This document shows, in pieces, positions 721 to 56,968 of a stretch of DNA of 64,000 nt. Within the stretch, counting starts at the first letter, position 1. Each line of letters starts with the position of its first letter. The DNA is from Conchocele bisecta. Its lineage: Eukaryota; Mollusca; Bivalvia; Lucinida; Thyasiridae. The notes under the pieces are model-generated. The model had not been told where the DNA came from. It worked only from the letters and a program-made list of their open reading frames with translations, and did no database searches. The translations under genes were made by a program, and so were the position numbers. Location: the NCBI GenBank assembly GCA_029237695.1, contig CM055265.1, positions 46,189,056 through 46,253,055 on the forward strand. The letters run 5' to 3'.

Positions 721-1405
721 TGACCAGGATCTATAGTGGTCAGGAATGATGACCAGTGTGGGCCCTGATCAACTATGCATATGATCCGGGGCTGTGGTGG
801 TCGCAACTATGTTCCTTTTCTCAGCCAGGGGCCATATTATGCCGTTACTCACAACAATTGTCGGCTGCTGCTGCTTTTATATCTTGCCTTATTTCTCAAT
901 AAAAACATGTTTTGATAGCACTTCAGAATCATTTCCAATGGAAATGATTCTAAAGTGCTGTCAAAGCATGTTGTAAATTATTCTAAAGTGCTGTCAAAGC
1001 ATGTTTTTGATGATAACAATGGAAAATAGAAAATAAACAGCAGATAACAAAAAATTAAGATAGTGGTCTAAGGGTTAACTGTAAATATGTTTAACCCTTT
1101 CACCACTAAGTAACTGACATGGACTAGGTCATGCTAACTTTGAGACTGTTCTATTATGCAGAAAAGGGGATCATGTGTAAAATAAAATCGACAAAATGGT
1201 GCAAATCTTGATAAGGTGGCTCATTGTGAGCTGGTTTATCATGGTCTACACCGTTTACAAATATTATAAAAGAGGTATAATGGTGTTGAAATGGTTAAAG
1301 GTGGTGAAAATATCTGTTATCTGCATTTTATTTGTTTGCCTGTTCAACAAAAATGTGTTCCTTGTTAGCCCAATATTCACAATAAACCACTGGCCCTACG
1401 CCCCA
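721..1405. other. Intergenic stretch with one hairpin
   Basis: No gene seen. A hairpin lies at about 902-975: AGCACTTCAGAATCATTTCC pairs with the following GGAAATGATTCTAAAGTGCT, and part of the right arm (ATTCTAAAGTGCTGTCAAAG) is then repeated directly once more up to about 1005. The rest is AT-rich and featureless. Confidence 0.6.
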
Positions 1406-1789
1406 GGGGGCCGTTTCACTAAACTTCATAGGACTAAAATGTTTGTAAGTGCAAATTTAGGACAGTCTGGAAATTTCAATTGATGGATTTACATTTATTG
1501 AGCATAGGCTGCATATGCAGCCCATGCTCAATAAATGTAAATCCAATAATTGTTTACAAGAAAACAGTGTTAATGTGAAATTTACAGACTATCATAATTT
1601 TGCCTTTACAAATATTTCAATTTAAGGCTTTACATTTATTGAGCATAGGCTGCACATGCAGCCTATGCTCAATAAATGTAAATCCAAAAATTATTTACGA
1701 GGAAACATTGTTAATGTGAAATTCACAGACTATCATAATTTTGCACTTACAAACATTTTAGTCGTACAAAGTTTAGTGAAACGGGTCCC
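1406..1789. mobile_element. Foldback MITE, family GGGGCCCGTTTCACTAAAC, double-hairpin copy
   Basis: Both ends carry the inverted motif GGGCCCGTTTCACTAAACTT followed by CGACTAAAATGTTTGTAAGT. Inside are two successive near-perfect palindromes, at about 1484-1552 and 1626-1685, each reading GGATTTACATTTATTGAGCA and its complement around a TGCATATGCA centre. Related copies at 1993-2235 and 2392-2640 carry a single palindrome, so this one has an internal duplication. Confidence 0.85.
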
Positions 1790-1992
1790 TGGCTGGTAAA
1801 ATTTGATCAGGGCTGAAAGAATTCAACAGCCAGCTGGCCCAGTGGGCCAACAATTCTTTTGCAAAGATGTGTACGTAACTTTTTTCACTCACAATTGATA
1901 ACAATCTGTAACAAATGCTGAATACATTGTTTTTGGGCCAGCAAAATATCAATCGGGCCAGCAGTTTTCTAAATTAATTTTGAAAAAAGACA

Positions 1993-2235
1993 GGGGCCCG
2001 TTTCACTAAACTTTGTACGACTAAAATGTTTGTAAGTGCAAAACTATGATAGTCTGTAAATTTCACATTGACAATGTTTCCTCGTAAACAATTTTTGGAT
2101 TTACATTTATTGAGCATGGGCTGCATATGCAGCCTATGCTCAATAAATGTAAATCGATCAATTGAAATTTACAGACGATCTTAAATTTGCACTTACGAAC
2201 ATTTTAGTCGTACGAAGTTTAGTGAAACGGGCCCC
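1993..2235. mobile_element. Foldback MITE, family GGGGCCCGTTTCACTAAAC, copy 2
   Basis: Flanked by GGGGCCCGTTTCACTAAACT and its complement. The central palindrome around 2098-2156 has arms TTTACATTTATTGAGCATRG. It has the same architecture as 2392-2640. Non-coding. Confidence 0.85.
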
Positions 2236-2391
2236 AGGATCTTACATGGAGAGCAGAGTGGGTTTGCTGAATAGAAGTCCGGAAACAGCATGCCTTCTGA
2301 CGCCATCTTGTCCAGATTGGGGGTCTCCTTACCAGGCTGTCCGAATACACCTAGATCACCCCATCCCATCTGGAACAGGAATAACGAACCA

Positions 2392-2640
2392 GGGGCCCCG
2401 TTTCACTAAACTTTGTACGTCTAAAATGTTCATACTGGTAAGTGCAAATTTAGGATGATTTAGAAATTTTGATTGTTGGATTTACATTTATTGAGCATAG
2501 GCTGCATATGCAGCCTATGCTCAATAAATGTAAATCAAATAATTGTTTACACGAAAATAGTGTTAATGTGAAATTTACAGACTATCATAATTTTGCACTT
2601 ACAAACATTTTATCGCACAAAGTTTAGTGAATCGGCCCCC
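2392..2640. mobile_element. Foldback MITE, family GGGGCCCGTTTCACTAAAC, copy 3
   Basis: Terminal inverted repeats GGGGCCCCGTTTCACTAAAC and its complement, with the same TGCATATGCA-centred palindrome near 2479-2536. Non-coding. Confidence 0.85.
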
Positions 2641-4537
2641 TCCATGGTGGGGTCTAACTCTAAATCATAATATCTGGCTGTGACTGGAGAAATGGGGATT
2701 CAATCCATGAGTCAATCACTCAAAGAATGAATACATGTAAATGTAGGTGAGCCTGTATTTATTTGTTACAATATCTTGATGATTGACCTACCACATAAGA
2801 TGGTCTATTTTTATATGTTATCTCCCCTTGAGATAGCATATTATGTCACGCAAATTTCTATGGGGGAAGCCATATTGTCATGCTAAGTCTAAACAGCGAG
2901 TACGACCAAGAAAATAGTTCCCTGTGCCAACTTATCCTATGGCGTTTTGGTATGTCTTGCTTTGTATCTAAAACTCTACATATACTATTCTCTATAGTTT
3001 TCATAGTTTTGGGCTCAGTTTATCAGTTAAATTCTTGAAAATATGAATCAAGACATACAAGACATACAGCAGCTAATATGAAATAGGCACTACCTATGAC
3101 GGGCGACGTTAGTGTATGAAACTAAATTTACCAATTGATAGCTTTACCATGTTTACCATGATGTTAGTATGCTATGAACGGTACCGTAGTATATTGTAGT
3201 ATTACAGAGCTACTTCCCGCAACTACCATGGTGTTACAGCTTCTCTATTATAATTAAATAGTGTCATTGGCGCACTTCTCTTATTTGAACCAGTGATACA
3301 ATTTAGATATTTCCTTTTCATATGTAGTACATTAATAGCCTAGGGAGTTTTCTAGAGAAAACGTATGGGTGGTAATGGGTTTGCACCATCACCGTACATT
3401 TGCCTCTGGATGATGATTGAGAAAATATGCAACTTTCAGTCTCTAGGTCCGCAAGTGATCAGTTTTTGTGGAGATAACATATTTCAGTACTTTCAGTATT
3501 TTGATTTATATTGCTGTTTCAAACACTTTTTATGGTCCCCTCTACGTACCTCAATTTCAATAAAAATGTTATCAGTTTTGTTCATCCCATTCTAATCATG
3601 CTAATAATTAAAAGATAGGAACGGACTCGCTGGATTCATATTAAATCAATAAATCATATCGAAATAATACGAACGCGGTTGATAACGTCGCGAAAAAACC
3701 TCGATCTGATCGTCTTTATTCATGTTTTGTATCTTATGACACAGCAACAAGTGGTGTTTTCTCATGTGCTGTGTAAATATGTTTTACCACCAACAGAAAC
3801 ATCCCTGGGGCTAACCAGGGGACAACAATATCTTTGAAATTCAGATGATATGACACTCTTTGATGTGGAATATGGTTCACTATCTTGCTAAACCTGGCAT
3901 ATTGTCTCTGCCACCAGTATAGAGCTAGATCAGCTTGCAAAAGCAGCAGTCTGATACTGATCTGCACTGTTCACCTTTCCAGCAATGAAACACATGTCTT
4001 GCGTCTAAGCAATATATATCATTACCAGGCTACATAAGTGTGCTATTTGATCAGGAACTATACTGGTCACAAATCCCAAAACCCCATTTCTCCAATCACA
4101 AGTGTGTAGTCCCTGTTAAATACCCACTGGGGACAGGTACACAACCACACAATGTAAAGCGTATCATGTGATTTAAATGGGGGCAGCCTAAACAGCGCAT
4201 AAATAATGGAAATTTAAAACCAAATATCTGTGGTATTATAATAAATACAAGTCAAGTAAATGCCACGATATATCGTTACAGGTATGAAAGTTATTAAATA
4301 CAGTGAAATCGCGATGGCTCAAAATGTAATGCCTCGTAATGCTGGGCTCGCTCGAAATAGCGCCACGATTTTTCCTATATGTTTAATGTATTTTAAATGC
4401 GATGGCTCAAAATGCAACTCCTTGAAAAGTGTGATCCATCGAAACATTTTTCAAGTGCCGCGGACGCATCTCTTATTATTTTGCTATATGATGGCGACGT
4501 TAATGTGTGCACCACTATGTATCATGCGCTATTTATA
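2641..4537. other. Intergenic stretch without recognised gene
   Basis: No coding signature, RNA gene or array was recognised. Two short pieces (about 2676-2700 and 4020-4100) contain TGACTGGAGAAATGGGG or its complement. That dispersed repeat also occurs near 27545, 52960, 53135 and 53490. Confidence 0.5.
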
Positions 4538-42785: not shown

Positions 42786-43025
42786 GTGTCCGGTTTGCTC
42801 AGTAGGTAGAGCGATGGTGTGGTAAACCAGAGATCCCCGGTTCGATTCCGGGCTGGTGCGCATCTTTCTCACCCTGTGACACTTAGCGCCCAACGTAGTT
42901 GCGGGAAGTAACTCTGCAGAATACTCCCGCATCGTCCGTACCGAGAGTTATGGTGCTCTCCGTAGGTTTCCCCTGCAAAGTACCAAATCACATCTGATTT
43001 GCACTTCAACTGTTAATTGCGACAT
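42786..43025 (+). repeat. tRNA-headed SINE, near-complete copy
   Basis: The head has A-box GGTTTGCTCAGTAGG and B-box GGTTCGATTCC with tRNA spacing. It is followed by TTTCTCACCCTGTGACAC and a body containing CGTCCGTACCGAGAGTTA, CCGTAGGTTTCCCC and ACTGTTAATTGCGACAT. Parts recur at 26926, 28640, 43085 and 43366. Confidence 0.75.
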
Positions 43026-44309: not shown

Positions 44310-44314
44310 TAAAC

Positions 44315-44420
44315 AGTAGTATATAAGATTCACAAAGATACCACCACCCTCTAGAAGGCACCGGCTACGCGCGGTGCCCCCACCGCATGGTGGTATCATT
44401 GTGGACTCTTATATACTACT
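44315..44420. repeat. Left terminal hairpin
   Basis: The 5' arm 44315-44346 pairs with 44388-44420 (about 32 bp, two mismatches and a one-base bulge). Inside an open loop, GGCACCG (44357-44363) pairs with CGGTGCC (44372-44378) around an 8-nt loop. Confidence 0.85.
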
Positions 44421-44568
44421 TGTATTTCCCTCCACTATTCGGCGGGTATGTATGAGAAGAATGGAACATATTTTTCATCAACCGCGAGACCATATATTTA
44501 TGACATGAAAAGATACACCCTATTAGAGATAAGAATCCCTATGTCATACTCAGTATATATATACAACA
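44315..44568 (+). repeat. Left terminal inverted repeat
   Basis: Matches the complement of 52392-52645 with few differences, starting AGTAGTATATAAGA and ending ATATATACAACA. The first 106 bases are themselves a hairpin. The outer AG dinucleotide is that expected of Polinton ends. A short frame starting at 44448 (MYEKNGTYFSS) is present in both repeats only because the repeats match. Confidence 0.9.
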
Positions 44569-44589
44569 TAATGGTTCTAGTTAAGTGTG

Positions 44590-44868
44590 CGTGGTTGAAG
44601 ACAGGTATACAGTCACGAGAGGTGTCATCGCACCGGTATTTACGAATATTGCAAACATCACCGTGCATGGATGCGAAGAGGTTCCGTTTCGCCTCGCCCA
44701 TGTCGGCATTGTGGGGTAGGGACCAAAGCCGAGTCATTTCTATGTCCACCATGCGGTGGCACTCAGGCTACTCATCGAATGGTTAACAAGGGATTACGTG
44801 CTCGCAAGTATTATCGTTTAGTAATAATTCAAATCGGAAAGTCAGTTAGAAAGATAGAATCGATCTAA
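44590..44868 (+). pseudogene. Cys/His-rich zinc-binding-like reading frame
   Basis: Frame 44671-44868, plus in-frame upstream text from about 44615, shows ERCHRTG, EYCKHHRAW, PCRHCG and FLCPPCGG, a spacing of Cys and His pairs like a double zinc ribbon, then a basic tail. A stop closes it upstream at about 44593, and the neighbouring frame has KCAWLKTG, so the start may be lost by a frame change. It is the first gene inside the left repeat. No specific function recognised; a DNA- or RNA-binding role is only a guess. Confidence 0.45.
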
Positions 44869-44940
44869 TAAGTCACGGTGTTTCTACAGCATTAAAACAC
44901 TGTAAAAAACATTATCAAACTAATTTTATAAAATTGGAAA

Positions 44941-45270
44941 TTGAACAGAAAAAAAAAACAACAACCAATATTATTAGAGAAAATGGATAATACAATGCAA
45001 TTGGAATTGAAAGTTTTTAATGACTGTGTTGAAGAAGTTTACGAAGCTTACGGGGGTTATGATCCTGTATATAAATTCTATAAAATGAGAACACTAGGCG
45101 ATATCGAATACATGAAATACCAGCGTAATTTATTACGCTCGGATAAAAACGTTGCATTTACAATATTATACCGGCAATTATGTCAACTATACAAGAGGCA
45201 AATACATAAAACATTAAGACGGATAATGCGTATCGGATATGAAACTAAGGTGTATTATATAAATTGTTAA
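44941..45270 (+). CDS. Small basic protein of unknown function
   Basis: About 90-109 residues; the first ATG in frame is at 44983. It is rich in Lys, Arg and Tyr, with LKVFNDCVEEVYEAYGG, KMRTLGDIEYMKYQRN and a basic helix RQIHKTLRRIMRIG near the end. The frame just upstream (SHGVSTALKHCKKHYQTN, from about 44869) meets it at a run of ten A near 44948, where a one-base length change would fuse them. The two could thus be one gene continuing from the zinc-ribbon frame. Not recognised. Confidence 0.45.
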   Translation: MNRKKKQQPILLEKMDNTMQLELKVFNDCVEEVYEAYGGYDPVYKFYKMRTLGDIEYMKYQRNLLRSDKNVAFTILYRQLCQLYKRQIHKTLRRIMRIGYETKVYYINC

Positions 45271-45980
45271 AACCAACGATTCGTTTACGAATGTACATTT
45301 CTACGATATCGCTTATAAAGATATGTATATTATTGAACAGAAAAAACACTACTAATTAATTTATGTTGTAATCACAGCACCAAGCAGACGACAATGTTCC
45401 AATTACACGCGTTATGAAAATGTAAATTAGGTGTCCCACCTTACACGTATATTAAGTGTCCATTTATAGAGAGGTTTACACGATTACGTCTTCCGGGAAT
45501 GGAAAATAAACACACTGTAATATATATTACACACACGGTTATTTATAGCCTTATCAATGGTATGTAAACAGGCTATCGATTTACACAGGTGGTGTGTACA
45601 CAGTTTATAAACACTTAGTGAGGGTTATATAATTCACGAATTTCCGGGATGGTTCGTTATTTAATTTTGTAAAAATATTTATAATTTAAAGCTGAACACC
45701 CCCTATTATATAGAAAACATATTAATTAATATAATAATTTATTAATTAATAATAAATAACAATTTTTTTTTATTTCACCAGCAAAGTTAGGTTTATATAT
45801 GAGAAATAAACACATATATACATTGCTGGGACGCTAGCAGTAATCTCAAAAGTGAGGCAGGTTTCGCCACATGTACTTCACTCTGGCCGCTCTACACATT
45901 ATAGCGGATGGAGGTCCAATGATGGGGTGGAGGAGATGTGAGTGTAACACACCTCGCTAAGCCTAAAAAAAAAAATTAAA
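45271..45980. other. AT-rich non-coding part of the element
   Basis: No coding signature. TTAATTAATATAATAATTTATTAATTAA-like text near 45720-45760 is almost pure AT. From 45830 to 45960 GC rises (GAGGCAGGTTTCGCC, GGATGGAGGTCCAATG) without any frame. Confidence 0.5.
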
Positions 45981-45991
45981 TAGAAGAGATT

Positions 45992-46073
45992 TAAGTGAAG
46001 GCTTAGTGGGGTGGACCCAGAAGTGTTTTGCTGGCGCGGGTTCGAGCCTCGGTGGGACCTAAAACTTTTTTTT
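45992..46073 (+). ncRNA. Candidate Pol III transcript (tRNA-like) inside the element
   Basis: AGGCTTAGTGGG (45999-46010) fits the A-box in 11 of 12 positions and GGTTCGAGCCT (46039-46049) fits the B-box in 10 of 11, at tRNA-like spacing. Eight T follow at 46066-46073, a Pol III stop. CCAG/CTGG could form an anticodon-like stem with a 10-nt loop, and the T-arm has four pairs. The acceptor stem does not pair, so it is not a normal tRNA. Confidence 0.4.
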
Positions 46074-46189
46074 CTTTTTTTTTTAAATTGTTAATTTTAT
46101 AATTTTCTTTAAATTAATTAATAAATGTTTACTGTACCAATATAATTAATTTTAAAGAAAACTATAAAATTAATTATTTAATAAAAATA

Positions 46190-46800
46190 TTAATTTCCTC
46201 CGACTTTATCTCCAAGTTTTACCCTAAATTTATCCCAATCAGTACACTCAAGCTTGGGCATGGTGGCGCGTGCTTTTATTCTAATATCATTTTTTAATTT
46301 TTCATATCTCCCCATTTCTTCCACTACGGATTCAAACTCTAAATTTGATATTTTCTTATCGGCCAACGCTTTGGACACTATAACGTCGATGCTATTTTTC
46401 TTAGACCTGGCGAGAACAGATATTCTATCATGTTTTCTACATTTTTTCACGAGTTTTCCACCCGACGCCCTAATTACCATACAAAGTATTCCAGATAAAA
46501 GGGTAATTCCACTCAAAACCCCTGCAAGTGGAACCGTTACAATTGTAGATAGCGTTGCAGCAGTCCCCGCACCACTCATTACAGATAAACTTGCCAGAAC
46601 CGTACTAGATGCTTCATCAAAATCGGCCCGCGCTTATATTTTTTAGCGTGTCTTTTTCTATTTCTATATTCCCTAACTAAAATATCCTGCATAGCGACGA
46701 TATTATTTAACCTAAAATCTGAACTTCTTTCGTTAATTGGACACAGTGTTGATGGAGTGGTATTGACAATTGGAAGCGGTGATTCGTTCATGATTTTCAA
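46190..46800 (-). pseudogene. Small hydrophobic-then-basic protein gene, one frame break
   Basis: Two minus-strand frames: an N-terminal 73-residue frame from 46800 ending in a basic stretch (EYRNRKRHAKKYKR), and a 129-residue frame to 46190. The second opens with a Gly/Ala/Leu-rich membrane-like segment (TVPLAGVLSGITLLSGILC) followed by a charged helical region with KHDRISVLARSKKNSID and NLEFESVVEEMGRYEKLK. A one-base change near 46630 separates them. From memory, small proteins of this plan accompany similar integrase/polymerase elements in cnidarians; function unknown. Divergent to the integrase side. Confidence 0.55.
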
Positions 46801-46845
46801 TATATTTGTATTTACAAATTAAGTTCAATTAACAATGAGACAATA

Positions 46846-47154
46846 GTGGAAGAACTCGCTGGGTCAGCGATTATCGTAACAAAGTTAATAACACTACCTT
46901 TGGAAAGTCTAATTAGATCATCACCGGAGAACGAAACCACCGACGAACTATCTCCAGCGGGTTTAATGACTCCCGGGGGATTGGATGAATTAGATTTTCC
47001 TAAGTTCCTTCAGAACTTAACCCCCAATCGCGATTGTACTTCCAACAAAGGTTTATTATTAACGACGCAGTTACCGGACGATCTGGCGAGGGCATGTTGG
47101 AGATTGTCCGATATATTAGAATACATCACATACGATGAACACGCACAAACTTGA
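46846..47154 (+). CDS. Acidic small ORF upstream of the integrase
   Basis: 102 codons beginning with GTG; no ATG is in frame, so the true start is uncertain. Acidic, with SPENETTDELSPAGLMTPGG and DELDFPKFLQNL. It overlaps the integrase start by 20 bases (47135-47154), which suggests coupled expression or a former fusion. Not recognised. Confidence 0.4.
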   Translation: MEELAGSAIIVTKLITLPLESLIRSSPENETTDELSPAGLMTPGGLDELDFPKFLQNLTPNRDCTSNKGLLLTTQLPDDLARACWRLSDILEYITYDEHAQT

Positions 47155-48168
47155 TACCAAACTATCAGTTCGCCTAACGCGCAAGCTGGCGAACACGTAC
47201 TACAGCCCCCGCGGCTACTGGAAGGGACTCGCGGCCATCAAGAACCTCGCGGCGGCGACCAAGGTTTCAGAAAACGCTGTCAAGGAATGGCTCAAGAAGC
47301 AGGCCATCTGGCAGATCTATTTACCCGCGCCTCACAATATTCCGCGACCGAAATTCGACGTGCCGGTGCCGAACCAAGTTACCCAAGCGGATCTCCTGTT
47401 TCTCCCTCACGATCGCGTCGGTCGCAAGACGTACAAGTACGCACTGACAATCGTTGACGTGGCGAGTCGTTATAAGGAGGCTGAGCCGTTGGCCACTAAA
47501 GAGTCTAAGGAGGTGGCCGAGGCTCTTTCCCGAATATATAAGAGGAGTCCTCTCAAATGGCCGAATCTTCTCCAGGTCGATCCCGGCCGCCAGTTCATGG
47601 GCGCGGTCTCTCCTCTATTGTCAAAGCACGACGTTTCTGTCAGACGCGGGGCCGCGTCAACATCCACCGAGACCAGGGAATCGTGGAGCAGTTCAATCGA
47701 ACCCTGGCTGAGAGACTGTTCGGACACCAATATGCCAAAGAACTTGTAGACCCTCATTCGCTATCGACCGAGTGGGTGGCCAGACTGCCCGCCGTGGTCT
47801 CCGCACTGAACGGAGAGGTGACCAGATTGATAGGTAAGAAGCCTGTTGATGCTATCAAGTTTAAAAGGGTGACGAGCAAGCCCTCTGCCGTCTCGCGCGG
47901 GCGACCCGTTGGTTTAGAGGAGCAACGGCTTCCATCAGATATTGACGTCCGGTACCTCTATCAACCGGGAGAGCTCGAAGGTGGCAGCCGCCGCGCGACT
48001 GATCCCGTGTGGTCTCTCAATGTATATCATCTAGATCGATCTATTACCAAACCCGATGAGCACGTGCTCTACTATTTGGATGATGGGCCATCTCGAGGGT
48101 TTGTTCGCGAAGAACTTCTTATGGTGCCTTCTGACACCCAGCTACCCCCGGATCGTCAGATTCTTTAG
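47135..48168 (+). pseudogene. Polinton-type DDE integrase (rve fold), frame break
   Basis: Would cut and join element ends to chromosomal DNA. Frame 1 (47135-47749) has an N-terminal helical region with YYSPRGYWKGLAAI and WLKKQAIWQIYLPAP, then catalytic Asp in TQADLLFLPHD (residue 86) and in LLQVDPGRQF (residue 149). Frame 2 (to 48168) has the Glu in HRDQGIVEQFNRTL, about 35 residues after the second Asp, then ALNGEVTRL, VRYLYQPGELEGG and a chromo/SH3-like C-terminal stretch ending REELLMVP. The frame changes by one base in a GC-rich G run near 47650. ATG chosen because family similarity begins shortly after it. Stop overlaps the polymerase stop by 4 bases. Confidence 0.85.
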
Positions 48169-50861
48169 TATTCTCTCCTTTTTTCAGAGTTTTTTTTTTT
48201 TTTACCTATCCTATAGGCTCGGTGTGTAACCCGCTTCTCATCTCTCCTCTTGTCGTAGTACGCCGACAACCCCAACTTCTCCTGCTTGTACGTCTTCATC
48301 ACCCCGTTAATAATTCGGAATCCCCTGTTCTCCGCCATATCCCTACCCCCTTCGAGAGCACTCTTGTACCTTCCCCAAGTCAGATCGTTAGATCTCTTCG
48401 ACATCCCCTTGGCCGAGTGCTTAGATTTTCCATCACCACTCACGTAGTAACACTTGCTACACAGAGCGATGGCTCTATCCCCTTCGAATTCCAGCTTGAA
48501 CAGTCCCGGAGTTCTGTTGCTCCACACGTCCCACGCCAACCACTCGGTCTTCTCCTTATTGAACTTTCTCTTCATATTCTTTCTCACCACCGCCGCCAGC
48601 GTCTTCTCCGACAGCGCGAAGTACATGCTGTCAGTGTCCATCTGTATCAGTTCGAAATCTCCGCGATCCACGTACTTGTCCCAGAAGTCGTAGTAGAACT
48701 CCAGAATCTGGAGCTTGGCCAACTGGTAGACCGCTATGCCACACTGAAACGGTCTGTTGATCACCACTCGAGTCTTCCTGCTCGATATCTCGTAAGCCTC
48801 CCCAATCTCCTCCAGGTCTTCGAACCACGCCGACCTCAGTGCCCGGTCGACAGTCTTCTCATCCTTCGTATATGTGGTGTTCAGGTGTCTCTCTTGTGCC
48901 TCTATCAGCTTGCCACAACACGCGTTGCCAACTAGTTTGAATATCTCCGCCAACACCGCCTTGCTCTTGTCGACGTCCCCCGTCCGTCTGGCAGCGGTGA
49001 CCTCTTTAACGAACCATTGAAACGGTTTGCCGGGTGTGTAGTCTATCACCCTATGCACCGCCTTGACGATCAGACCGTGCTCCAGATACCACTTTAACAG
49101 CGGGGAGTATATGATCATCTTCTTGGCGGACATTGCCCCTACGAGCTTTCTCTGTCCTTCGACTCTTTTCCTCCCGGTCCCGGCCAGGTAGTCCTTCATG
49201 TGCTGTGGAACCTCGGTCTCGTCGACTTCTCGATTAACGAACAGCGGCGACATTTCCGAGAACTTGTCTCTCAACGTTTCCGGGACCTCTATATCCAACT
49301 CCGCAAATCCGAACCACTTTTCACTCCTGACCTTCCTCACGAAACAGTCTATATACGACTGTCTTTCCGGGTCGTCACACGTCCATATCGTCTCCTCCCC
49401 GCACGGCATGTCTTTCGACAGGGTAGACAGATACAGCGCATTGGCGTCGTACCCCAGCACCGCCTTGCACATCTTCTCCTCCCGACTACCTACCTGACCC
49501 CTGATCGTCGACCTGCCAGCCTCTGCGTATCTGCAGAACACTATGGACGGACCACCGACCAATCCCTGCTTCATCATCTCGTAAGTTTCAGACTTCGGCG
49601 ACCACAGCTCGGGCGTGTCCGCCGTCCCATCGATCGACCCGCGGAGTAGGTACTGAAGGGAAAGACCGGGCAGAGACACATCATCCTTGAGTATGTCCAC
49701 GCCTCTTCCCCTGTAGAACTCAGTCATTTTAGTCAGAGCCTCCAGGAACGGTCCTACATCTAAGTCGTTGTAGTGTTGCAACCATTCCTTGAACGTCTTC
49801 ATCCCATTTTCTCGGAATACCTTCTTACACTCTTTCCACTCGGACAACGACAGTAGGAACTCACCCTTCAACTTCAAGTACCACTCGGGATAGTCTGGCA
49901 GCCCCGGATGGTCGAGCTTGTCCGCGCTATCGAACCACTCGTACGGAAAGTGAGACTTTACCGTTTTACACTCGTACGCCTTAACCCACCGGTCGTATGT
50001 GGTACCGGGTCCCAGATACTGGATGATGTCGAGAAATCTAAACTCCGGGGTAAACAGAAACATCGTCGTGCTGGCTCTCTTTCCGACCATCACCTTATTC
50101 ACGGTGGCCGCCAACTTCTCTACAAAATACTGCTTGATGAGGTTCAGGTCGTACCTGCTACAGTTGAACCCCACCACCGGGACTTGGTCAATCCAAGAGA
50201 TAATCTTTGCTTGCTGAGACTTCGATAACATATCTATGTCGGCCGGCAGATACTTCTTCCTAACCCCCTCCCTGATTGCCTTGCCTCTCATCTGCAGCTC
50301 GGTCACGAACTTCTCGACTAGCGTGTCGGGATCTCGTTCGTATATGTGTGTGATCCCTTCATGCATCGTATCCCCCAACGACACCGATATAGGAACGTGC
50401 TCGACCTCGAAGGTCAGGTCTTTGGTGGGTCGAGTGGTTTTAGACTTGTCGAGATACGCCTCGAAGTCGTAGACTATCTGGTGAGGGTACAGAGTCGTCG
50501 CCTCCTCGCGCGGTGGTGCTGGATAGTGGGGATTCCCCTCATTCAACCACTCGCACTCCCACATCACCACCAGCTCGTAACCCGCCTCCCTTATCTTGGC
50601 GTCTTGGATTTTCGTCCTCCTGTACAGCGATCTCGCGTGACCTCTCCTGCAATGCGTCGGACACCCGTGCCAGTAACATCCGTGAAACTGAAACACGGTC
50701 TCGGTCTCGTGACAATAACCGTCGACCGGATCGCCGGCCACCCACCTCTCTCCACCGTGACCGCATCTCGCGTGATGTATGTGCTTTCCCACCCTCTCTT
50801 CTTCTCTATTCAACCATTGAATCGACCTCTCGCTCACTGACCCCTTGGGATAGAACGCCTT
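48165..50861 (-). CDS. polB: Protein-primed family B DNA polymerase, catalytic part
   Basis: An uninterrupted frame of about 899 codons after an in-frame TAG (50862-50864). Numbering from 50837: a Cys/His-rich nuclease-like region with TVFQFHGCYWHGC (47-59) and WECEW (93-97). Exonuclease motifs DFEAY (124), NCSRYDLNL (225) and YNDLDV (356). Palm motif A YDANALYL (463), motif B region KLVGNACCGK (634), motif C MDTDSMYF (733) and a KCYY/SAKG tail (795-811). Exo and palm residues look intact. The large insert between Exo III and motif C is expected of protein-primed enzymes of Polintons. It would replicate the element from its ends. No ATG lies just after the TAG; GTG at 50837 is the first alternative. 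Confidence 0.85.
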   Translation of the reverse strand, partial: KAFYPKGSVSERSIQWLNREEERVGKHIHHARCGHGGERWVAGDPVDGYCHETETVFQFHGCYWHGCPTHCRRGHARSLYRRTKIQDAKIREAGYELVVMWECEWLNEGNPHYPAPPREEATTLYPHQIVYDFEAYLDKSKTTRPTKDLTFEVEHVPISVSLGDTMHEGITHIYERDPDTLVEKFVTELQMRGKAIREGVRKKYLPADIDMLSKSQQAKIISWIDQVPVVGFNCSRYDLNLIKQYFVEKLAATVNKVMVGKRASTTMFLFTPEFRFLDIIQYLGPGTTYDRWVKAYECKTVKSHFPYEWFDSADKLDHPGLPDYPEWYLKLKGEFLLSLSEWKECKKVFRENGMKTFKEWLQHYNDLDVGPFLEALTKMTEFYRGRGVDILKDDVSLPGLSLQYLLRGSIDGTADTPELWSPKSETYEMMKQGLVGGPSIVFCRYAEAGRSTIRGQVGSREEKMCKAVLGYDANALYLSTLSKDMPCGEETIWTCDDPERQSYIDCFVRKVRSEKWFGFAELDIEVPETLRDKFSEMSPLFVNREVDETEVPQHMKDYLAGTGRKRVEGQRKLVGAMSAKKMIIYSPLLKWYLEHGLIVKAVHRVIDYTPGKPFQWFVKEVTAARRTGDVDKSKAVLAEIFKLVGNACCGKLIEAQERHLNTTYTKDEKTVDRALRSAWFEDLEEIGEAYEISSRKTRVVINRPFQCGIAVYQLAKLQILEFYYDFWDKYVDRGDFELIQMDTDSMYFALSEKTLAAVVRKNMKRKFNKEKTEWLAWDVWSNRTPGLFKLEFEGDRAIALCSKCYYVSGDGKSKHSAKGMSKRSNDLTWGRYKSALEGGRDMAENRGFRIINGVMKTYKQEKLGLSAYYDKRRDEKRVTHRAYRIGKKKKNSEKRREY

Positions 50862-51446
50862 CTAGTAGGCCGACTGTGGTCTCTCTACCCTCTTACCCGG
50901 ACATGTCACCACGGTCTTCCCACCCATGCAGGTGGTCGCGTGCCTGTGCATGTTACACGATTTTGTGATCCGTTGTAGACATCCGGTGCATCCGTACTCG
51001 TTCGTCATCTTGCGGAGGTTCGTTATGAGGAAAGAGTGACCTCCAAACATTCCTATCGTCATGATCTTCTCCCCAACCACGTCGTAATTTGCCGGAACCT
51101 TCATGAGGTACCACACTCCTTCGTCGGTGGGCTCGTAAACGCGAATGCCCATCTTGAAGTGCTCTTCGACCTTCTTAATATTTTCCAGTGGAATTCCCTT
51201 ACTATCCGGTCCGTTATCGTGACCGAGATATTCATGAGCTAGAGCTCGTGCCTTCTCACAACATCGGTCTGGTCTCCCTCCACGGTGGATGGCTATGCAC
51301 CTAAACAGACACAAGTAGTCGTCGTACGTGTCGACGGAATACATTCCCTTTTTCTGTCTTAACCAGTCTGGGAGTTTTCCCAGAGAAGTTGTTGAGCGTC
51401 GATGATCATCTTCACCTCGACCGATATCCAACGAACGAAGGTCCAT
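50862..51446 (-). pseudogene. Polymerase N-terminal part: OTU-like and zinc-finger region
   Basis: Same frame as the catalytic part, separated only by TAG at 50862-50864. Shows GKLPDWLRQKKGMYSVDTYD, DDYLCLFRCIAIH with a candidate catalytic Cys, and GHSFLIT with a candidate His about 95 residues later. That arrangement resembles OTU cysteine peptidases fused to Polinton polymerases (family knowledge; assignment inferred). A YGCTGC...H....C zinc finger follows near the end, then KRVERPQSAY. Similarity to the family starts near 51395; text upstream of that in this frame is out of phase. Confidence 0.65.
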
Positions 51447-51952
51447 TTTGTGTTTGGTCTATCAACTTTGTCGATGTCCATTCGACCTTTCTCTCTATCG
51501 GTTATCCAACTCTCCGCTTTGGAAATCTCGTTTATCCACGGACTACCCTTTGATTGTTTGTGATAGATCATCGTTTCGTCGGTCTCGATGTTCCTAATAC
51601 GATACGAGCACGAATACCTCAGATAACACGCCGTTGTCATCTCTGGGCGAATTTTATTCATTATGCGATTTTCGATCTCCCCATCTACCCCCCTCTCGAA
51701 AGTCCATACTATCTTCCTCCTACCCCTATCAACAGTTTCCCTAACTTCGGCTTCTTCGGCGAGAATCCTGGGACCCTCCTCCACCAAAGCTCTGGCGATA
51801 TCTCTCCTCCTCTTAGGAGGTCTCCCCACCAACCCTTGATAAATCTTATTGTAGTACGCCTTGTATAGGGGTTTTCTACGTGCGCTGGGATCTTCTTTTA
51901 CACGCTGCGCGTAAGCGGTGGCGCGCAGACTGGCCGTCGTCTCGTTCTCCAA
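51386..51952 (-). pseudogene. Polymerase N-terminal part: basic region
   Basis: The frame contains SLRATAYAQRVKED, GRPPKRRRDIARALVEEG, IVWTFERGVDGEIENRIM and KWTFVRWISVEVKMI before going out of phase with the OTU-like part near 51390 by one base. It lacks its own ATG; it joins its upstream neighbour out of phase near 51955. No separate domain recognised. Position suggests the terminal-protein or linker region. Confidence 0.55.
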
Positions 51953-52146
51953 TTTCTCGGAGCGTTTTCCGGGGGTCGGCGGGCAATCGTCCGGTCGAAA
52001 CCCAAAACCGCACGCCGCAGCCTCTCCTCGTAGACGACGGCTCGCGCGTCACTTATCCTATCTGCTATATCTTTCTTGAGTCTCAAACCTCTTAGGGAAA
52101 TTCCCCAACTCTTAGCTTGCTCTCTCATTTGCTTTATGGTAGACAT
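51898..52146 (-). pseudogene. Polymerase N-terminus: SAP-like segment
   Basis: Begins MSTIKQMREQAKSWGISLRG and continues GLRLKKDIADRI, a helix-turn-helix-like pattern close to SAP DNA-binding motifs; then ARAVVYEERLRRAV. ATG at 52146 is preferred over the upstream one at 52182 because the SAP-like pattern follows it and the TATACTGAGTATA palindrome ends exactly one base before it. The meaningful part stops near 51955, where a one-base change shifts the frame. Confidence 0.55.
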
Positions 52147-52414
52147 TATACTGAGTATAACCAATAGATTTTTTATCTTCAATAGGGTGTAAGTTTATAT
52201 TTTATTTGTAATAAATGTATGACAGATTGTTGTAATATACTTAGTATAACTTATGGATAACTTGTCTTTAATAGGGTGTCAGTTTATATTTGTGACAGAT
52301 TGCTGTATTTATACTAAGTATAACTTATGGATTTCTTATCTTTAATAGGGTGTCAGTTGTTATTTTATTCGTAATAAATGTATGACAGATTGTTGTATAT
52401 ATATACTGAGTATA
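52147..52414. promoter_or_regulatory. Four TATACTNAGTATA palindromes upstream of the polymerase
   Basis: Perfect 13-bp palindromes at 52147-52159, 52236-52248, 52310-52322 and 52402-52414, each followed at a short distance by AATAGGGTGT on the same reading. The block between the polymerase start and the right terminal repeat is made of these 75-90-bp units. Possible promoter or origin-type binding sites. Confidence 0.55.
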
Positions 52415-52645
52415 ACATAGGGATTCTTATCTCTAATAGGGTGTATCTTCTCATGTCATAAATATATGGTCTCGCGGTTGATGAAAAATATGTTCCATTC
52501 TTCTCATACATACCCGCCGAATAGTGGGGGGAAATACAAGTAGTATATAAGAGTCCACAATGATACCACCATGCGGTGGGGGGCACCGCGCGTAGCCGGT
52601 GCCTTCTAGAGGGTGGTGGTATCATTGTGACTCTTATATACTACT
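52392..52645 (-). repeat. Right terminal inverted repeat
   Basis: Complement of 44315-44568. Includes the fourth TATACTGAGTATA and the terminal hairpin. Confidence 0.9.
52539..52645. repeat. Right terminal hairpin
   Basis: Arms AGTAGTATATAAGAGTCCAC... and ...GTGACTCTTATATACTACT pair over about 32 bp with a single one-base bulge, cleaner than the left copy. The inner GGCACCG / CGGTGCC stem-loop is the same and in the same orientation relative to the element end. Confidence 0.85.
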
Positions 52646-52650
52646 TAAAC

Positions 52651-56260: not shown

Positions 56261-56968
56261 TCAATATCTCGTATGCCCCCCTCGCGCATCTGTCACAGCC
56301 CTGATTCTCTTGTGCATGGAATTCATCAGTGCATTTATCCTTCTTATTGGGATATTGTTCCACTCTTCCAACAATGCAGTCCTTAGTTGGTCGAGATTAG
56401 AAGGGGTATTCCGACACCCCCTTATCCTCCTGTCAAGTTCGTCCCACAGATGTTCGATTGGGGACAAATCGGGACTGTACGCTTGCCAGTCGAGTGGGTT
56501 AATGTTATGGTCAGCCAGAAAGTCTTGACAAACTCTGGCTACATGGGGCCGGGCATTATCATGCTGGAAAATTAGTTGACGCTGTTGCACAAATGGAACA
56601 ACAACCAGGCGGAGGATTGCATCCCTATATCTTACGGCGGTTAAATTCCCGGCTACCACAATCAACGGTGACTTTACCCCGTGAGATATCCCTCCCCAAA
56701 CCATAACCGAGCCACACCAAAACCTATCCCTCTCAAGAACGCAAGCGTCGGCGAAGCGTTCCCCATGACGTCGGCATACATGACGTCGACCGTCCGGACG
56801 AAAAAGAGTGAACCGGGACTCATCTGTGAAAAAGACTTGTCTCCATTGCCTCATTGGAAATCGTCTGGGAGCATGTGTCGCCAACCAAGCCATACGACGC
56901 GCGCGACGTGCACGAGTGAGAGGCAGACCAACGTAGGGACGACGAGCTCGCAGACCAACCTCGCGCAA
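56261..56968 (-). pseudogene. Tc1-like DDE transposase, catalytic part
   Basis: 235 codons to a natural stop at the family-like C-terminus. Catalytic Asp in FFTDESRF (residue 49), Asp in FQHDNARPH (137) and Glu in YSPDLSPIEHLWDEL (172), giving DD34E. WGGI (91-94) is the usual Tc1 block. The catalytic triad is intact. The N-terminal DNA-binding part is in another frame upstream. Flanking Tc1 terminal repeats were not identified with confidence. Confidence 0.9.

Follow-up and report, generated by a model that had tools for sequence, protein, structure and literature searches.

The genome of the bivalve Conchocele bisecta (GenBank assembly GCA_029237695.1) contains, on contig CM055265.1, an element that possesses the polymerase, the integrase and the inverted termini of a Polinton (or Maverick) together with no recognizable capsid gene, and it raises the question of whether a small capsid-free transposon lineage is present in this mollusc or whether a longer element has lost part of its genes. 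We analyzed the 64,000 nucleotides that surround it (positions 46,189,056 to 46,253,055 of the forward strand; referred to here as the window), for which an earlier note had considered both readings. The element is, in our view, almost certainly a decayed copy of a multicopy Polinton-type family of about 16 kb, and one deletion at a 3-bp microhomology most likely cost it about 7.9 kb, with the predicted major capsid protein (MCP) and packaging ATPase among the losses. What had been observed at this locus is partly confirmed, and what had been made of it is partly supported.

The element is a single insertion of 8,331 bp (44315-52645 of the window). Its two inverted repeats (254 and 255 bp) are identical in 249 of 255 alignment columns, and its termini read AGTAGT...ACTACT; it thus has both the long inverted repeats and the AG/AGT end motif by which Polintons/Mavericks are recognized. 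On the plus strand, the left repeat is followed by a small open reading frame (ORF), the remnant of a longer ORF (minus strand), the integrase gene (plus), the polymerase gene (minus) and the right repeat. The G+C content rises to 45.1-52.0% in the three 2-kb steps that cover the integrase and polymerase genes, and ranges from 27.6 to 41.9% in the 29 steps that make up the rest of the window. The sequence TAAAC is situated exactly outside both ends, and the two ends therefore belong to one insertion. It could be argued that, in so abundant a family, neighboring ends might be mispaired and the apparent unit might be a chance composite of two insertions or an artefact of the assembly; we consider this highly improbable in light of the TAAAC copies at both ends, of the same 5-bp rule in nine other copies, and of the lack of any run of N inside the element. 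The view of the earlier note that polymerase, integrase, 254-bp repeats and TAAAC duplication form one unit therefore holds, and its concern that the two repeats might stem from different insertions did not materialize.

Target duplications of Mavericks are 5-6 bp in length. All ten copies of the present family in which both flanks were read (the window copy and nine others) have duplications of 5 bp, instead of the 6 bp that are usual for Polintons/Mavericks, and that have been reported for vertebrate Mavericks (PMC8097293) and also in PMC12747079. A 6-bp duplication is a usual rather than a defining trait, and we file the family on its genes and its end motif while stating the 5-bp departure; the (AGT)2//(ACT)2 motif reported for the ends of vertebrate Mavericks (PMC8097293) is present here as well.

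Among ten ORFs of the window that were scanned against Pfam, the polymerase matches DNA_pol_B_2 (E 5e-9), and the first of the two integrase ORFs matches rve above the cut-off (E 1.4e-8); the unbroken 343-aa integrase ORF of another copy, L033, reaches an E value of 1.5e-7 and 32.0 bits for a cut-off of 32.6. The polymerase is 60-61% identical to its three best matches (1,253-1,318 aa) among the matches listed, and its family resemblance suggests that it would be a protein-primed enzyme of the terminal-protein (TP) type; Polinton polymerases are described as carrying N-terminal TP and vOTU domains (PMC11071308). No family of capsid, ATPase or protease proteins passes the Pfam cut-off in these ten ORFs, where Waikav_capsid_1 (E 0.19) and Peptidase_C39 (E 0.22) match at chance level. 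PHROGs names no such protein with confidence among the window ORFs, and tblastn searches with the MCP and ATPase pieces of the longer copy L015 cover 0% of these queries in the window element. The missing capsid, ATPase and protease genes of the earlier note are thus borne out, in contrast to the tRNA-like gene that it placed inside the element: ARAGORN finds no tRNA gene in the window, and a permissive Rfam scan of 45700-46250 returns seven weak matches with no tRNA among them. The sole match at the Rfam gathering score is a tRNA at 42797-42852 (plus strand; 38.2 bits; model positions 10-63 of 71), which lies outside of the element and is perhaps a tRNA-derived repeat.

Both enzyme genes of the window copy are damaged, a point absent from the earlier note. 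An in-frame stop, together with a frameshift near 51,400, breaks the polymerase gene into three pieces, and the integrase gene is frameshifted as well. The polymerase lesions are absent from the stretches read in the copies L045 and L046, the first of which has a stop and a frameshift of its own and the second a stop of its own, and the integrase reads through the site of the window's frameshift in L033 (343-aa ORF) and L024 (261-aa ORF). With the damage missing from two copies read per gene, it is therefore not shared by the copies read. The window copy, with its packaging module lost and its enzymes broken, is probably inert by now.

The relatives of the element in the host genome (1,891,530,640 bases searched) are numerous. 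A probe for the left end gave 3257 first-look candidates, the best 40 of which were scored at 92-100% identity, and 22 other copies were studied, 20 of them over about 10 kb starting at the left end and two (L033, L034) over 6 kb around the breakpoint. Pairing of ends delimited seven copies of 16,264, 18,378, 14,220, 17,550, 17,323, 19,600 and 33,627 bp, all of them with matching 5-bp duplications. Some of these long copies likely contain insertions; about 3.2 kb of the 18,378-bp copy (L017) is unmatched. Two short copies with matched 5-bp duplications, L011 (952 bp) and L029 (7,682 bp), have different deletions. The comparison with host copies that the earlier note had suggested speaks against the small lineage, since longer copies with capsid genes do exist; the reservation is that these two short copies exist as well.

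In 16 of the 20 left-end stretches, a block that resembles the window breaks off at element position 2658 or 2659, and beyond this breakpoint the longer copies possess a Capsid_N-like piece and an A32-type packaging ATPase. The capsid gene of L015 is apparently divided between two frames. The ATPase matches Pox_A32 above the Pfam cut-off both in L015 (E 2.9e-8) and in L033 (E 4.3e-9), and tblastn searches with the L015 pieces show that 15 of the 22 other copies, L015 counted, carry sequence of the MCP, the ATPase or both. The family as a whole thus possesses the predicted capsid protein and the packaging ATPase of Polintons/Mavericks, and the window copy possesses neither. A probe of 301 bases across the junction in the window (best 40 of 3063 candidates scored) finds a full-length match at the window's own locus alone, whereas the other 39 scored matches cover only the right side of the probe, at 97-100% identity. 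The left and right parental sequences have three bases (TCC) in common at the join, and the window copy is about 7.9 kb shorter in this region than the 16,264-bp copy. Judged from these sequence comparisons, the junction looks private, and a single microhomology-type deletion is the simplest account of it. Two copies that match the right end of the window element at 99% identity (596-base probe) have capsid-module sequence upstream of the integrase or breakpoint, namely MCP and ATPase in L033 and 68% of the ATPase in L034. The junction of the 952-bp derivative L011 was likewise present in one of 40 scored matches, its own, and there is therefore no sign of amplified deleted forms; an amplified 952-bp derivative was rejected as a candidate on this basis.

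Several observations weigh against the interpretation of the element as a deleted copy of a capsid-encoding family. The Capsid_N matches of the predicted MCP piece in L015 (E 3.9e-4; 20.5 bits) and L033 (E 4.6e-5; 23.5 bits) both remain under Pfam's curated cut-off of 24, and a maturation protease has no Pfam match among those longer-copy ORFs that were scanned, which are a part of all their ORFs. The coverage of the MCP piece is just 17% in L019, 16% in L022 (where 98% of the ATPase is covered) and 23% in L029. Neither MCP nor ATPase was detected in seven of the 22 copies (L011, L012, L013, L017, L018, L020 and L024): in L012, L013 and L017 the stretch stops short of the expected position of the module, in L020 similarity fades, L024 reaches the integrase and polymerase genes without a capsid module, and L018 loses similarity, yet 57% of the polymerase query matches within its stretch. 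The 99% identity of L033 and L034 to the window is confined to the 596-base right end; around the integrase gene, across about 1.5 kb, it amounts to 96.6% and 95.8%, and in a 0.9-kb polymerase stretch the sister copies are 95.6% and 96.9% identical, each with its own polymerase damage. Short forms recur in the family, though both junctions searched look private, and the window junction might have a second, diverged copy elsewhere, because 40 of the 3063 candidates were scored. As a separate observation, the left part of L018 is interrupted at 936-3322 of its stretch and beyond, and its 10 kb contain no MCP or ATPase; L018 is possibly another deleted or nested copy.

Two further explanations of the short element must be weighed. 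A distinct capsid-less Polinton lineage that replicates itself and transposes at about 8 kb, as the earlier note had envisioned, would explain why polymerase and integrase sequences are kept without the capsid module between complete ends and a complete target duplication, and it would have a precedent in the nine elements without MCP, protease and ATPase on record in PMC4028283. We nevertheless regard it as very unlikely to apply here: the junction occurs in one of 40 scored matches, seven of the nine other delimited copies measure 14.2-33.6 kb, capsid or ATPase sequence is present in 15 of 22 copies and also in those with 99%-identical right ends, and both enzyme genes are broken in the window copy. 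Somewhat better, though still unlikely, are the prospects of a non-autonomous derivative whose deletion preceded its mobilization in trans by full-length copies. The normal ends and duplication of the window copy would fit this, as would the shorter derivatives L011 (952 bp) and L029 (7,682 bp) with duplications of their own; the same facts are explained by deletion after insertion, however, and with no second window or L011 junction among 40 scored matches each, amplification is unseen. The deletion derivative that the earlier note had allowed for is therefore retained, in view of the longer copies that carry the missing module and of the private junction.

For this family we envision that the full-length parent replicates as linear DNA by means of its putative terminal-protein-type polymerase, that the rve integrase would insert this DNA with a 5-bp stagger, and that, given the predicted MCP and ATPase, the family may undergo packaging at least occasionally. 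The window copy would then have arisen by a single microhomology-type deletion in a normal copy, either before or after its insertion. A capsid-less Polinton seen alone can be such a private deletion in a family with capsid genes, and the absence of genes from one copy is therefore not evidence for a capsid-free lineage. As a deletion derivative, the window copy is largely ordinary; the remaining interest lies with the family, with its hairpins, its 5-bp duplications and its mirrored ends.

The hairpin ends that the earlier note had proposed are upheld by folding predictions. The terminal 106-108 nt of each window repeat are predicted to form a hairpin (z -9.0 and -12.6 by DNA folding) in which a stem of about 31 bp is followed by an internal loop without pairing and by a short stem at the apex, and none of 200 shuffles was as stable for either end. 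Self-complementary termini are predicted for the family as well: in folds of about 107 nt computed with RNA energy parameters, each of the 26 ends that were examined (21 left and 5 right) pairs its terminal bases, with pairing that begins at the first base in 25 of them and at the second in one (L025). As to orientation, 25 of these ends are flip, none is flop and one is not callable; the sample is biased to one orientation, because the top-ranked matches to a flip-oriented query were taken. A search with a flop pattern gave 78 matches, by listing mostly ordinary ends with a chance-matching flank, and no flop end was recognized in them; of the four places read, those at C7 and C15 had tails that we attribute to chance and those at C8 and C9 were real palindromes. 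The flop orientation was thus sought and not found, and a family with both orientations is not what this biased sample exhibits. Nor was a hairpin-nicking or hairpin-resolving enzyme recognized when the ORFs given were scanned against Pfam and PHROGs. We suggest that the hairpin at each end serves as a replication or integration signal that is able to fold and to be copied around.

Mirrored junctions of the kind expected from hairpin-telomere replicons were found at two loci. At C8:18.708 Mb (stretches L054 and L061), the mirror image of inner-hairpin sequence is also present outside the terminus over about 48 bp, and at C9:79.320 Mb (L060) a mirror image continues past the normal terminus for about 98 bp. 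Three variants in L060 and one in L061 are common to both mirrored arms, and none of 21 other copies carries them (20 left-end stretches and the window were compared, with the variants picked after the sequences had been read). With the same rare variants in both arms, it is most likely that copying around the hairpin produced the outer arm from the end to which it is attached. A search for mirrored junctions identified two among 40 scored matches, the query's own locus included (best 40 of 3295 candidates). No target duplication could be assigned to L060 or L061, and pairing L061 with the end in L062 in search of one gave no match. Fold-back synthesis while the element replicates would account for the mirrored ends; an identical trace would be expected if the template were switched in host DNA where a stable hairpin forms. 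It is conceivable, though rather doubtful, that the family has true hairpin telomeres, the terminal 107 nt of which fold back and prime or template copying round the turn, so that the palindromic ends are fossils of this process. If so, the DNA of the family would pass through head-to-head intermediates akin to those of a rolling hairpin, beside or instead of simple protein-primed ends. The predicted hairpin termini at every end examined and the two turn-around junctions are relevant to the replication of Polinton ends.

Parvoviruses and poxviruses are hairpin-ended linear replicons, and the family resembles them in that its terminus is self-complementary and contains an internal loop that stays unpaired, and in its rare mirrored junctions. 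It differs from them in that no hairpin-resolving enzyme was recognized in the scans, in the absence of flop orientations among 25 callable ends of the biased sample, and in a polymerase that, by family resemblance, is probably of the terminal-protein type. To Polintons/Mavericks, which are listed in molluscs (PMC10294476), it is linked by the family B DNA polymerase, the rve integrase, inverted repeats some hundreds of bp long and, in its longer copies, a predicted MCP and an A32-type ATPase; the 5-bp instead of 6-bp duplications, the predicted hairpin at every end examined and the window copy without a capsid module set it apart. Capsid-less Polintons are already known from the work of Krupovic et al. 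in 2014 (PMC4028283), and the window element shares with them the absence of MCP, protease and ATPase. Those elements are described as products of concerted gene loss, whereas the window element is a single copy in a family with predicted capsid genes, and its junction is unique among the scored matches. Bidnaviruses possess a Polinton-type polymerase, reportedly without terminal hairpins (PMC4061559), and the hairpins of giant viruses are treated in PMC12747079. The word 'hairpin' is absent from the available parts of PMC8097293 and PMC4028283 and occurs once in that of PMC11071308. A shallow literature search for Polintons with hairpin, palindromic or inverted terminal ends found no account of hairpin-ended Polintons, and such ends may so far have gone unreported. 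The coordinates of the features discussed are compiled in the table.

Table. Features of the Polinton-type element in the window, with the mirrored family ends found elsewhere in the host genome
Feature	Position	Strand	Remarks
Target site duplication TAAAC, left	44310..44314		5-bp rule in 10/10 copies
Left terminal inverted repeat, 254 bp, begins AGTAGT	44315..44568	+	
Predicted terminal hairpin in left repeat	44315..44420	+	-32.1 kcal/mol, z -9.0
Small ORF; 137-aa relative in longer copy L015	44941..45270	+	no Pfam match
Remnant of 207-aa ORF (whole in L015), broken into 129- and 73-aa ORFs	46190..46800	-	
Probable deletion junction, 3-bp microhomology TCC	46971..46973		about 7.9 kb missing relative to the 16,264-bp copy
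rve-type integrase, frameshift near 47,640	47135..48168	+	ORFs 47135-47749 and 47557-48168
Family B DNA polymerase, broken	48165..51952	-	ORFs 48165-50837, 50862-51446 and 51359-51952; stop 50862-50864
Right terminal inverted repeat, 255 bp	52391..52645	-	
Predicted terminal hairpin in right repeat, oriented as the left one	52539..52645	-	-39.3 kcal/mol, z -12.6
Target site duplication TAAAC, right	52646..52650		
Mirrored family ends	L060 1012 (C9:79319811); L061 1112 (C8:18.7078 Mb)		

Searches for related loci outside of the host yielded little. Neither the polymerase ORF nor the integrase ORF identified a related locus among viral contigs, where the polymerase alignment gave one match of 26 residues (50% identity; E 4e-4, among candidate stretches only). 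Prokaryote genome contigs contain no related locus, phage records gave one match of about 60 residues, and neither the polymerase ORF nor the MCP piece matched an entry in sequence searches of the PDB. No homologue was found for the 129-aa ORF of the window or for its 207-aa form (932 candidates for the latter); in L015 the 207-aa ORF (2210-2833, minus strand) has a weak match to a Pfam RTX N-terminal family (E 4.4e-4), which is below the cut-off. Internal repeats are present in L015 at about 3340-4000, where they overlap the ORF at 2845-3480 (minus strand) and match in several registers between copies. In the window, a degenerate tandem array (52147-52430) adjoins the right repeat; it consists of three to four units, each about 74-90 bp long. 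Outside of the element, the ORF at 56261-56968 (minus strand) resembles a transposase of the Tc1/mariner type by its sequence. Finally, at one polymerase motif (48900-48930 of the window; ORF 249-824 of L024) the enzyme reads G-N-A-C-C-G in place of the G-N-S-x-Y-G of its relatives P0001-P0003, and a cysteine thus replaces the tyrosine of these relatives in at least two copies, that of the window and L024.

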